Shown here: piece after piece, positions 40,740 to 49,108 of the stretch
Numbering within the stretch: position 1 is the stretch's first letter
Layout of the letters: each line of letters begins with the position of its first letter
Source of the DNA: Aromatoleum toluolicum
Lineage (GTDB): Bacteria > Pseudomonadota > Gammaproteobacteria > Burkholderiales > Rhodocyclaceae
NCBI RefSeq assembly: GCF_012911005.2
Contig: NZ_WTVS01000029.1
Location: 1-64,000, forward strand
Direction: 5' to 3'
Length of the DNA stretch: 64,000 bases
Translations under genes and position numbers: made by a program
The notes under the pieces: model-generated
The model's input: the letters and a program-made list of their open reading frames with translations, nothing else
The model's database searches: none
Told to the model about the DNA's origin: nothing

Positions 40740-42422
40740 TCAATAAACGTCGTGCATCGTGTTGAAGACGTTGAACTTGCCCGTCGGCGTGACGATTGCC
40801 GGGTCGGTGATGACCTTCTTCAGCTTGAGGGTCTTGTCGTCGTAGATGACGATCGCCGACTGATCGGTCTTGCCGCCCCACAGCGAGATCCACACCTCGT
40901 TCCCGGCCTCGTTGTACTCGGGGTGCGTTGCGCGGCGAATTGCCTTGCTTTCCGGCAAACCCGAATCCTTGGCCACGTCGAGACGAGCCGGCGCCTTGTT
41001 CAGGTCCTTGAGGTCATAGACATATACCGACTCGGCGATCTCCCGCTCGGGGTTCATCGGGGCGTCGGCCCACAGGTGCGTGGACTTCGGGTGCGTCTTG
41101 ACGAACAGGTTGCCCGCGCCCGGCATCTTCAGCTCCTGCACGACCTTCCAGTTCTTGTCCTTGTGCTTGGCGTGCTTGGGGTCATCCGAGGCCGTCGAGA
41201 TCACCGAGATCACGTCGGCACCGAGGTGGCCCGTCGTCCACACGGGGCCGAACTGCGGGTGCATGAAGTTCGCGCCACGGCCCGGATGCGGGATCTTCGC
41301 CGTATCTACCAGCGCGGCGAGCTTGCCGGTCTTCGTGTCGACCGCTGCGACCTTGTTCGACGCGTTGGCGGCGACCATGAAGTAGCGCTTCGAAACGTCC
41401 CAGCCGCCGTCATGCAGGAACTTGGCGGACTCGATCGTCGTGGACTTCAGGTTCTTGATGTCGGTGTAGTCGACCAGCATGATCTGGCCGGTTTCCTTCA
41501 CGTTCACGACCCACTCGGGCTTGATGTGCGAAGCGACAATCGACGCGACGCGCGGTTCCGGGTGGTACTCGCCGTCGACCGTCTGGCCGCGGGTGGAGAC
41601 GATCTTGATCGGCTCCAGGGTCTCGCCGTCCATGATCGAGAACTGGGGCGGCCAGTAGGTGCCGCCGATCAGGTACTTGTCCTCGAAGCCCTTGAACTTC
41701 GACGTATCGACCGAACGCGCGTCCGAACCGAGGCGCACCGTCGCAACGGTCTTCGGATCCTCGTACCACATATCGATGATGGTGGTCAGGCCGTCGCGGC
41801 CGACCGTATACACGTAGCGGCCGGATGCCGACAGCCTCGAGATATGCACCGCGTAGCCGGTGTCGAGCACTTTCCAGATCTTGTGCGTGTCGCCGTCGAT
41901 CAGCGCGAGCTTGCCGGCATCGCGCAGCGTCACCGCGAACACGTTCTTCAGGTTGATGTTGTTCATCTGCTTCTTCGGACGCTCGGCAACCGGAACGATC
42001 AACTTCCAGCTGTCCTTCATGTCCTTGAGCGAGAACTCGGGCGGCACGTCCGGCGTCTGCTGGATGTACCGCGCCATCATGTTGATCTCGTCCTTGGTCA
42101 GGATGTCGTCGTAGTTGACCATCCCGCCTTCGGTGCCGTAGGAGATGATCTTCTCGAGCCGGGCAGTGCCGAGCTTGAGCGTGCCGCCTTCGAGTTTGGT
42201 GCCATCGGCCGCGGTCTTGGCCCAGTGGGGTTCGAGGTTCTTGCCCGTCGCCCCCTTGCGCAAGACGCCGTGACAACCGGCACAGCGCTCGAAATAGATC
42301 TGCTTTGCCTTCGTTTTTTCGTCGGCAGTCATTTCAGGAGCTGACTGCGCCCACGCCGCGCCGACTGCCATCGGCAGCAGCGCCAGAGCCAGGGTCTTTC
42401 CGATCCAATTATGGTTTTGCAC
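40740..42422 (-). CDS. nirS: Cytochrome cd1 nitrite reductase, copy 1 (P. stutzeri-type)
   Basis: Periplasmic enzyme reducing nitrite to nitric oxide. I choose the GTG at 42422, six bases after AAGGAG, giving 560 residues; an upstream in-frame GTG lacks that site. Signal peptide ends near AWA-QS (25). Heme c motif CAGCH is at 47-51, followed by [16 protein letters not shown]. The d1 propeller keeps the proximal histidine (TGYAVHISR) and the pocket histidines (VASHIKPEW and FLHDGGWD); the end is FNVFNTMHDVY. The mature N-terminus is short, without the tyrosine-bearing arm of P. aeruginosa NirS. First gene of nirS-nirT-nirB, behind an FNR/DNR-like promoter. Complete. Confidence 0.96.
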   Translation of the reverse strand: MQNHNWIGKTLALALLPMAVGAAWAQSAPEMTADEKTKAKQIYFERCAGCHGVLRKGATGKNLEPHWAKTAADGTKLEGGTLKLGTARLEKIISYGTEGGMVNYDDILTKDEINMMARYIQQTPDVPPEFSLKDMKDSWKLIVPVAERPKKQMNNINLKNVFAVTLRDAGKLALIDGDTHKIWKVLDTGYAVHISRLSASGRYVYTVGRDGLTTIIDMWYEDPKTVATVRLGSDARSVDTSKFKGFEDKYLIGGTYWPPQFSIMDGETLEPIKIVSTRGQTVDGEYHPEPRVASIVASHIKPEWVVNVKETGQIMLVDYTDIKNLKSTTIESAKFLHDGGWDVSKRYFMVAANASNKVAAVDTKTGKLAALVDTAKIPHPGRGANFMHPQFGPVWTTGHLGADVISVISTASDDPKHAKHKDKNWKVVQELKMPGAGNLFVKTHPKSTHLWADAPMNPEREIAESVYVYDLKDLNKAPARLDVAKDSGLPESKAIRRATHPEYNEAGNEVWISLWGGKTDQSAIVIYDDKTLKLKKVITDPAIVTPTGKFNVFNTMHDVY

Positions 42423-42466
42423 CTTTCTCTCCTTAAGCGACACGGAATGTCAAACAACTGGCGCGG

Positions 42467-42508
42467 AGTATTGACCTGATGACTTTGGGGATCTTTGATG
42501 TGTCTTAA
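42467..42508 (-). promoter_or_regulatory. FNR/DNR-type promoter of nirS1
   Basis: Minus strand TTAAG-ACAC-ATCAA (42508-42495): right half perfect, left half three of five. A -10 AATACT (42472-42467) puts the start near 42460, 41-42 bp from the box centre. Leader about 38 bases. The gap 42423-42618 holds no gene. Confidence 0.55.
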
Positions 42509-42618
42509 ATTTCCCCAGACGGTGCGGGGATATAGACATTCGACATACGTGCGGATGCGCTCCGACCGTTGGTCGAAGGGAACATGACGGCATCGCCGCC
42601 AGGCGGACGGAAAGGGAT

Positions 42619-43125
42619 TCAGCCCGCGTCGCGGATGCGCAGGCCGGTCTTCTTCAGGATCGCGGAAGAGAAGAGCACGTCGCGGGCGCGACACGTGGCG
42701 GGGAAACGCGATTCGAGGCGGGCGGCGATGTCCTCGATCTGTTCACGCACGGCGTCGTGACTGCGGCCATGCACCATCGCGAACAGGTTGTACGGCCAGT
42801 CCGGCAGACGGCGGGGACGGCGATAGCAGTGCGTGACGGCGGAGAGCGCACCAAGCCATTCGCCGACCGCCTCGATCGCCGCGTCATCGATGTCCCACAC
42901 GCTCATGCCATTGGCCGTATAGCCGATCGCGTAGTGGTTCGGCACGGCCCCGATGCGCCGGATCACGCCCCGCTCGAGCATGGAGCCGATGCGTGCGAGC
43001 AGCTCCTCGGGCGGGATGCCCAGTTCGCCAGCGACCGCGCCCCAGGGGTCGGGAACCAGCGGCAGACCGCCCTGGGTCGCGACGATGATGCGCCGTTCGA
43101 GCTCGTCGGCAGCCACGTCCGTCAT
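42619..43125 (-). CDS. nirH: Heme d1 biosynthesis protein NirH (siroheme decarboxylase subunit)
   Basis: A 168-residue AsnC/Lrp-fold protein; with NirD, L and G it decarboxylates siroheme to didecarboxysiroheme. The ATG at 43125 overlaps the nirG stop (ATGA). Motifs VIRRIGAVPNHYAIGYTANGMSVW and THCYRRPRRLPDWPYNLFAMVHG match the NirL/NirH branch. G versus H is assigned from the nirC-F-D-L-G-H order. Last of the nirCFDLGH run; about 200 bp separate it from nirS1. Confidence 0.88.
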   Translation of the reverse strand: MTDVAADELERRIIVATQGGLPLVPDPWGAVAGELGIPPEELLARIGSMLERGVIRRIGAVPNHYAIGYTANGMSVWDIDDAAIEAVGEWLGALSAVTHCYRRPRRLPDWPYNLFAMVHGRSHDAVREQIEDIAARLESRFPATCRARDVLFSSAILKKTGLRIRDAG

Positions 43126-47312: not shown

Positions 47313-47327
47313 GCACCCGTCGATAAC

Positions 47328-47356
47328 GTACTTGGCCGATCCTCGTGCACAAGTAC
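47328..47356 (+). repeat. Inverted repeat in nirE-nirS2 spacer
   Basis: GTACTTG (47328-47334) and CAAGTAC (47350-47356) with a 15-base loop, ending about ten bases before the nirS2 ribosome binding site (GAAAGGAGATAG). No FNR-like box or strong promoter is seen in the spacer, so nirS2 is probably read from the nirE promoter. Confidence 0.4.
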
Positions 47357-47377
47357 TTTCCTGAAAGGAGATAGGTC

Positions 47378-49108
47378 ATGAGCATGAAGAGTAACTGGAT
47401 CACCGGTGCATTCCTCGTCGCCAGCCTGCCGCTGGCCATCTCGCAAGCCTTCGCCCAGGGCACCGACAAGCACGTGGAGGACACCGAGGCCAAGTACCAC
47501 GCCGGCGGCTCGCCGCTCGCCGATGTGGATTTGTACAAGGACACCAATCCCGACGCTCCCAAGATGAGCAAGGCCGAATTCGACAAGGCCCGCAACATCT
47601 ACTTCCAGCGCTGTGCCGGCTGTCACGGCGTGCTGCGCAAGGGCGCAACCGGCAAGCCGCTCACCCCGGACATCACGCTGCCGCGCGGTACCGAATACCT
47701 CAAGGTCTTCATCAAGTACGGCTCGCCGGCGGGCATGCCGAACTGGGGCACGTCAGGCGAACTCACCGACGACGAAGTCGACCTGATGGCCCGCTATATC
47801 CAGCAGACGGCGCCGACCCCGCCCGAATTCGGCATGCCCGAGATGAAGAACACATGGAAGGTCATCGTCCCGCCGGCGCAACGGCCGACGAAGAAGATGA
47901 ACAACTACAACATCGCCAACATCTTCTCGACCACGCTGCGCGACAGCGGTGAAGTCGCGCTGATCGACGGCGACACGAAGAAGATCATCAACATCGTCAA
48001 GACCGGCTATGCCGTGCATATCTCCCGCATCTCGGCTTCGGGGCGCTATCTCTTCGTGATCGGTCGCGACGCACGCGTCAATATGATCGACATGTGGATG
48101 GAGAAACCCGACAACGTCGCCGAAATCCGCATCGGTCTCGAAGCGCGTTCGGTGGACACGTCCAAGTTCAAGGGCTACGAGGACAAGCTGGCGATTGCGG
48201 GCGCCTACTGGCCGCCGCAGTTCGTCATCATGAACGGCGACACGCTCGAACCGCTCAAGATCGTGTCGACCCGCGGCCTCACCGTCGACACGCAGGAATA
48301 CCACCCCGAGCCGCGCGTGGCCTCGATCGTCGCCTCGCACTTCAAGCCCGAGTTCGTCGTGAACGTGAAGGAAACGGGCAAGACGCTGATGGTCGACTAC
48401 TCCGACATCACCAACCTGAAGATGACCGAGATCGGCTCGGCGCGCTTCCTGCACGACGGCGGCTGGGACCTGTCGAAGCGCTACTTCTTGGTGGCCGCGA
48501 ACCAGTCCAACAAGATCGCCGCGATCGACGCCAAGGAAGGCAAGCTCGCCGGCATGGTCGAAGTGGGCAAGATCCCGCACCCCGGCCGCGGCGCCAACTT
48601 CGTCCATCCGAAGTACGGCCCGGTGTGGGCGACCGGCCATCTCGGCGACGAAACGATCGCCCTCGTCGGGACCGACCCGAAGGGCCACAAGCAGTACGCA
48701 TGGAAGCTCGTAGAAAACCTGAAGAGCCAGGGCGGCGGCTCCCTGTTCATCAAGACCCATCCGAAGTCGAACCACCTGTACGTGGATAACCCGCTGCATC
48801 CGGAGGCCAAGGTCAGCCAGTCGGTAGCCGTCTATGACCTGAAGAACCTGCAGGCCGGCTACAAGGTCCTGCCGATCGGCGAATGGGCCGGTCTCAAGGA
48901 CGACGGCGCCAAGCGCGTCGTGCAGCCGGAGTACAACAAGGACGGCAACGAGGTGTGGTTCTCGGTATGGTCGGCAAAGGACAAGGAATCGGCGATCGTC
49001 GTCGTCGATGACAAGACCCTGCAGCTGAAGACCGTGATCAAGGATCCCAAACTGATCACGCCGACTGGCCACTTCAACGTGTACAACACGCAGCACGACG
49101 TGTACTGA
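47378..49108 (+). CDS. nirS: Cytochrome cd1 nitrite reductase, copy 2 (P. aeruginosa-type)
   Basis: Second nitrite reductase, 576 residues, start with GGAG about ten bases upstream. Signal peptide ends near AFA-QG (26-27). A long N-terminal arm (about 28-70) includes Tyr40, placed like Tyr10 of P. aeruginosa NirS. Heme c motif CAGCH is at 79-83, followed by [21 protein letters not shown]. d1-pocket histidines are kept ([26 protein letters not shown]); the end is [11 protein letters not shown]. The heme c domain is clearly different from copy 1. Downstream of nirE and followed by its own terminator. Complete and likely active. Confidence 0.96.

Follow-up and report, generated by a model that had tools for sequence, protein, structure and literature searches.

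Results

A docked nirS block and the box of the resident nirS2

Cytochrome cd1 nitrite reductase is encoded twice at a single nir locus of Aromatoleum toluolicum, in the 64-kb stretch analysed here (contig NZ_WTVS01000029.1, positions 1 to 64,000; hereafter the window), and the two copies come from different lineages. One of them, nirS1 (40740..42443, minus strand; 567 residues, type A, Stutzerimonas-like), heads a four-gene block of nirS1, nirT, a nirB-like gene and a small cupredoxin gene; the other, nirS2 (47378..49108, plus strand; 576 residues, type B), follows nirE. Wherever both types occur in the genus, the block occupies one fixed docking site, and a perfect FNR/DNR-type box stands before nirS2 only in genomes that lack the block. 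It appears, then, that in this genus a second version of NirS was inserted as a module of four genes and that the resident nirS2 no longer has an oxygen/nitric-oxide switch of its own.

Our census of the genus covered 17 genomes: nine with both types (dual genomes), seven with type B only, and one, G010 (G and L numbers are our own handles for genomes and loci), with type A only. The block sits between nirH and nirJ in nine of the nine dual genomes, and in the seven genomes without it nirJ comes after nirH with no recognised gene between. A site of the form TTGAY-N4-GTCAT, one mismatch from the FNR/DNR pattern, precedes nirJ in the window (38667..38680, minus strand) and recurs in the nirH-nirJ spacer of all seven blockless genomes, so that the block was inserted upstream of the nirJ control region, or lost there. 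Gene order marks the block as an nirSTB-type unit: nirT (TIGR02161) and then a gene with an EB_dh domain follow nirS1, as in Stutzerimonas loci, and NirS1 belongs to the Stutzerimonas clade. By our own count, within reach of the flanks, 27 of the 38 type-A-matched loci (L039-L076) had nirT and 33 had EB_dh, and neither was found near a type-B-matched nirS (0/40 loci, L077-L116).

Boxes were located with a strict 14-base pattern, TT[GA]A[TC]N4[AG]T[CT]AA, of the FNR/DNR-type consensus TTGATnnnnATCAA (TTGAT-N4-ATCAA type; PMC1274295, represented, like every article cited here, by excerpts of its text); loosening it to TTAAC/GTTAA was our own choice. The window holds five sites with at most one mismatch, one perfect and four with a single mismatch; three of the five lie at nirJ, nirS1 and nirC/nirE, and none falls at nirS2. 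The sole perfect match stands in the divergent nirC/nirE region (46369..46382, no strand assigned), where all 16 genus genomes that were scanned have a perfect box. Upstream of nirS1 the sequence TTAAG-N4-ATCAA (42495..42508, minus strand) departs from the pattern at one base, as do the nirS1 boxes of Azoarcus sp. Aa7, G001, A. evansii and A. toluvorans; the other four dual genomes, of the anaerobium group, have a perfect one. All seven blockless genomes have a perfect box upstream of nirS2, at -91 to -95, and none of the nine with the block has one. The nirE-nirS2 gap itself measures 133–148 bp without the block and 65–103 bp with it; that of the window (47313..47377, plus strand) spans 65 bp and is without the box seen in the seven blockless genomes. 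Some weak sites with two mismatches occur in the nirS2 gaps of other dual genomes. A by-eye check of the window gap for a sigma-54-like element or a hairpin yielded no defensible candidate. An inverted repeat, GTACTTG / CAAGTAC, lies in this gap at 47328-47356; it is kept in Aa7 and G001 and partly in A. evansii, and was not seen in the other dual genomes.

Box and block are thus mutually exclusive in 16 of the 17 genus genomes (Fisher test, 8.7e-5, with no correction for kinship). The 16-genome comparisons do not include G010, which has type A only, a partial rpoB and 6% contamination. The pattern requires three state changes on the nirS2 DNA tree and five each on the trees of rpoB and of the flanking nir genes, and a two-trait likelihood test gave p values of 0.001, 0.0004 and 0.0004 on these three trees, respectively (chi-square approximation).

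How the association may be read

We favour, with modest confidence, a reading in which a normal Aromatoleum nir cluster (nirE-nirS2 facing nirC-F-DL-G-H...J-N) would have had the four-gene block docked between nirH and nirJ. NirS1 would bring its own electron line, from quinol to NirT and on to NirB/cupredoxin, and NirS2 would take its electrons from the general bc1/cytochrome c pool; we infer these two branches from the pairing of nirT and EB_dh with type-A and not with type-B loci. Where the block is present, nirS1, bearing an FNR/DNR-type box, would take over the directly switched role, and nirS2, without a box of its own, would be retained and read mainly from the nirE promoter. Nine Crp/FNR-type proteins exceed the cut-off in the assembly, which makes a regulator plausible; none is named. 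A bolder claim is that docking repeatedly causes the loss of the nirS2 FNR/DNR switch, leaving one directly switched NirS and a second as background enzyme on a different electron branch, in a repeated regulatory hand-over between cd1 lineages. This we offer tentatively, and would sooner doubt than assert it.

A number of findings weigh against the reading we favour. Firstly, the nirS1 box is itself imperfect in five of the nine dual genomes, the window included, and A. evansii carries a one-mismatch site at -68, right where its nirS2 gap begins. Secondly, the likelihood test depends on three to five changes, the position of A. toluvorans on the nirS2 tree is weak (support 50), and there may have been recombination at the nir locus. 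Thirdly, outside the genus a perfect box precedes type-B nirS in 14 of 22 dual genomes and in 20 of 22 without type A, the latter being 22 fetched genomes of a larger set whose drafts could miss second copies; this difference is not significant (p 0.069), and box loss from type-B nirS wherever type A is present was rejected as a general rule. As 14 of the 22 dual genomes keep the box, the exclusive pattern is a trait of this genus and not a rule. Three of the dual genomes outside the genus (G129, G074 and G155) have a perfect box before neither copy, and Dechloromonas denitrificans (L188, L189) has one before both. Finally, an FNR-type motif precedes nirS of A. aromaticum EbN1, and its NirS was formed in all conditions tested, oxic included (PMC9765128); a box before nirS thus does not imply tight switching.

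The strongest competing explanation is that recombination exchanged two haplotypes, one with the block and a boxless nirS2 and one with no block and a boxed nirS2, the association then reflecting linkage and not adaptation. The rise from three state changes on the nirS2 tree to five on the rpoB and flanking-gene trees speaks for such exchange, as does the position of A. tolulyticum, which has no block and by its flanking genes is nested in a dual group. By eye, moreover, the gaps of the window group and the anaerobium group are partly alignable, so that fewer separate losses would be needed. Set against this, the A. toluvorans gap near nirS2 still resembles the boxed type, so that its loss of the box looks separate, and the anaerobium-group nirS2 is closest to that of the boxed G004, which we take to be A. 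aromaticum EbN1. Taken together, these two resemblances make the box losses look separate. The block and nirS2 sites also lie ~5 kb apart with other nir genes between them, and we consider a haplotype swap possible but rather doubtful.

Plain redundancy, in which the second nirS was gained by transfer and kept for dosage while the promoters drifted apart without function, fits the frequent and patchy occurrence of several nirS copies across the order (PMC7054561; our family table), the presence of the checked catalytic residues in both copies, and the retention of both boxes in several dual genera. It accounts less well for exclusivity across 16 genomes with three state changes on the nirS2 tree, and for a block that carries its own electron carriers; we judge it unlikely.

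Within the genus the nirS2 box has been lost only where the block is present, as would be expected if NirS1 were displacing NirS2, box loss being the first step of a decay that ends with NirS2 lost. The ratio of nonsynonymous to synonymous substitutions (dN/dS; pairwise Nei-Gojobori, own script, chosen genus pairs) argues otherwise: it is 0.03–0.15 for nirS2, in pairs covering six of the nine dual genomes, and nirS2 is open and without internal stop in all nine. For nirS1 it is 0.04–0.10 within the genus and 0.17 between the window and the type-A-only G010. Both genes are under purifying selection in the tested pairs and look kept as working proteins. The nirS2 values suggest conservation over a long time in dual lineages; they weaken the case for replacement with NirS2 decay, which we regard as improbable.

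Two intact nirS genes of separate lineages

The initial annotation had described two intact nirS genes at one locus, on opposite strands and about 5 kb apart, and this was borne out: both open reading frames are open and full length, and 4.9 kb separate them (42443 to 47378). Both proteins match Cytochrom_D1 (E 7e-156 for NirS1, 3e-152 for NirS2), covering positions 2-368 of the 368 of PF02239, and both have a c-type haem domain. Identity between them is 62% over the whole protein, 58% in the c domain and 63% in the d1 domain. The segments TGKNLEPHW...GGMVNYDDIL, assigned earlier to copy 1 as typical of P. stutzeri NirS, are found in NirS1 and in NirS of Stutzerimonas stutzeri (L044). The haem c segment pointed out in copy 2 was likewise found, and is near-identical to the PDB sequence 5guw/1bl9, which we take to be P. 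aeruginosa NirS; 5guw and 1bl9 are the closest solved structures by sequence for both copies, with 888 bits for NirS2 and 679 for NirS1. The d1-pocket histidines are kept in both, as had been claimed (His182, His327 and His369 aligned in each). These, CxxCH and the c-haem methionine (Met88) are present in 69/69 type-A and 71/71 type-B aligned rows, with residue numbers and roles as in P. aeruginosa NirS. An N-terminal arm with the Tyr10 position is present in NirS2 and absent from NirS1, which has a 13-residue insert in its c domain; the arm is absent in 69/69 type-A rows, and 60 of 71 type-B rows have Tyr at that position. On the reading we favour, both NirS would function as nitrite reductases, and the single d1 pathway of the locus would mature the two of them.

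Phylogeny placed the copies apart. The tree comprised 146 rows, of which 140 were NirS rows (family genomes and named loci) and six were references, and was built by a quick method with the Shimodaira-Hasegawa-like approximate likelihood ratio test (SH-aLRT) as sole support. In the comparison set beforehand, which asked if the two copies are sisters, the copy-1 and copy-2 sets of the genus formed separate, distant clades. The nine NirS1 of the genus cluster with support 95 when Parazoarcus is counted as a tenth row and 93 without it, with Thauera and Stutzerimonas near; the sixteen NirS2 cluster with support 99, sharing their half of the tree with P. aeruginosa, Paracoccus and Ruegeria. The split between type A and type B is recovered by FastTree on the c domain alone and on the d1 domain alone, with one change each, which excludes a domain chimera. 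These separate clades support the proposal that two lineages were brought together. Nothing was found to suggest that one copy arose in this genome by recent duplication or as a domain chimera. Identity is 62%, and the clades are separate whether the whole protein, the c domain or the d1 domain is used, which rules out both origins for practical purposes.

NirS1 shares 87–90% identity with Stutzerimonas NirS (86% in the c domain and 93% in the d1 domain); its closest named relatives are Azoarcus sp. Aa7 (98%) and Aromatoleum species (92–96%). The label of P. aeruginosa type given to copy 2 holds insofar as both fall in the same half of the tree; it does not extend to close kinship, identity being only 71% in the d1 domain and 56% in the c domain, and the near kin of NirS2 in the tree belonging to its own family.

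One set of d1 genes at the locus

The source assembly of the window is an Aromatoleum/Azoarcus-type genome of 6.16 Mb in 289 contigs. On the minus strand the genes run in the order nirC, nirF, nirDL (fused), nirG, nirH, nirS1, nirT, EB_dh haem protein, cupredoxin, nirJ and nirN; nirE and nirS2 face them on the plus strand. Within the block, nirT (40060..40668, minus) encodes a NapC/NirT tetrahaem cytochrome above the TIGR02161 cut-off with four CxxCH motifs. The EB_dh (PF09459) haem protein after it (39143..40012, minus) has one CxxCH and one CxxxCH, and we call it nirB-like by position, as it takes the place of nirB in the Stutzerimonas order; the small cupredoxin gene (38723..39055, minus) is the last of the block.

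The remaining minus-strand genes are nirC (45895..46257), for a small c-type cytochrome; nirF (44661..45848), a Cytochrom_D1 protein without a c domain, named by position; the nirDL fusion (43601..44659), a siroheme decarboxylase; nirG (43122..43604), of siroheme decarboxylase subunit type and below the NCBIfam cut-off; nirH (42619..43125), above the cut-off of the siroheme decarboxylase subunit beta model; nirJ (37412..38617), a radical S-adenosylmethionine protein whose start was set by comparison with relatives; and a nirN-like gene for a c/d1 protein (35807..37399), named by position. On the plus strand, nirE (46488..47312) belongs to the tetrapyrrole methylase family PF00590 and is also named by position. 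Four proteins of the assembly match Cytochrom_D1 strongly (>300 bits), namely the two NirS, NirF and NirN, and each is encoded at this locus; one NirJ exceeds its cut-off. With nirF, DL, G, H, J, E, N and C all at the locus, the view that one set of d1 synthesis genes serves both enzymes is supported.

Discussion

Electron supply and expression in related systems

The nirS-nirT-EB_dh order and the link of nirS to nirTB are shared with the Stutzerimonas nirSTB unit, clade 1b in PMC13086519, and from gene order we infer that type A here corresponds to that clade. According to the same paper, one NirS clade of Stutzerimonas always occurs with nirT and nirB and another never does; NirT is required for nitrite reduction in S. 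perfectomarina; and in full nitrite accumulators with nirTB added nitrate stopped nitrite reduction, the authors leaving the role of NirTB unresolved (PMC13086519). In the Stutzerimonas loci that we fetched, by contrast, nirS is the only copy and is followed by nirC-F-DL-G-H, whereas here the unit is docked in another nirS cluster and ends in a cupredoxin.

Two known nirS pairs resemble this one in their divergence and suggest how it may be expressed. Thauera sp. strain 27 (Etchebehere and Tiedje 2005, as told in PMC8014003) has two divergent nirS, one nitrate-regulated and one constitutive; the excerpted accounts that other papers give of it mention neither linkage nor an electron-donor block nor promoter loss. 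Dechloromonas aromatica RCB has a 59% identical pair, nirS1 and nirS2, of which one is N-oxide-inducible and one steady (PMC6593283); unlike the genes studied here, its copies appear from their tags, Daro_3274 and Daro_3323, to be separated, with no docked cluster. By analogy with both, we expect one induced and one steady copy here. Given the boxes before both copies in D. denitrificans, the D. aromatica pair may not stem from box loss.

nirS pairs elsewhere

Pairing of nirS in one cell is not unusual and is already known. With NirS1 as query (E <=1e-100), 93 of 150 sampled family genomes gave a match; on our own reading of the table, 28 gave at least two and 25 have both types. Pairs of two nirS types have been published for Rhodocyclales, Thauera, Dechloromonas and Halomonas; the report of a Thauera pair dates from 2005 (as cited in PMC7054561 and PMC8014003). 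Of the assemblies in a NirS tree from 2024, 16% are multi-copy, 85% of these with copies from distinct clades (PMC10999283), and NirS1-3 clusters and multicopy nirS are described for Rhodocyclales (PMC7054561); neither the docking site nor the promoter exclusivity was found in the excerpts of these two papers. A search of the open-licence literature, likewise in excerpts, returned no prior report of a docked block or of box/no-box exclusivity, which is weak evidence.

Other arrangements were met along the way. In G010, nirS1-nirT-nirB lie within a 16-kb stretch in which no other nir gene was found, and nirDL-G-H-J-N on another contig (L126, L127); its nirS1 carries the box TTGATCGAGGTTAA, identical to the one before nirS2 in several relatives. 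Plasmid p4 of Azospirillum brasilense Sp7 (L234, 9010-14452) carries a related set of nirS, nirT, cupredoxin and cytochrome D1 genes, the block in portable form, and no gene for d1 synthesis is listed within 9 kb of it (19.6 kb fetched; the PLSDB gene table is incomplete); its NirT gene is 1.6 kb long, a size that would allow a putative NirT-NirB fusion. Linked nirS pairs at other docking places occur in two genomes of one other genus (L133, L134), and independent linked type-A/type-B pairs at another nir junction in Acidovorax (L059, from 10001 to 15500) and between nirJ and nirN in a gammaproteobacterial metagenome-assembled genome (L057, from 2738 to 11659 and beyond). Two genomes, G121 (L198, L199) and G142 (L192, L193), have two type-A nirS each with no type B found, and G136 (L200, L201, L202) has two of type A and one of type B; several nirS of these three fall in a more distant type-A branch.

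This set of genomes bears on the question of why two cd1 enzymes are kept in denitrifiers. Aromatoleum offers a natural comparison, with alike clusters that differ in the presence of the block, the opposite change at the promoter, and several of them in named strains. It allows one to ask if the NirS types use different branches, quinol-NirT as against bc1-cytochrome c, altering nitrite build-up and nitrous oxide (N2O) release. For this group of bacteria, nirS copy counts can also overestimate the numbers of denitrifiers.

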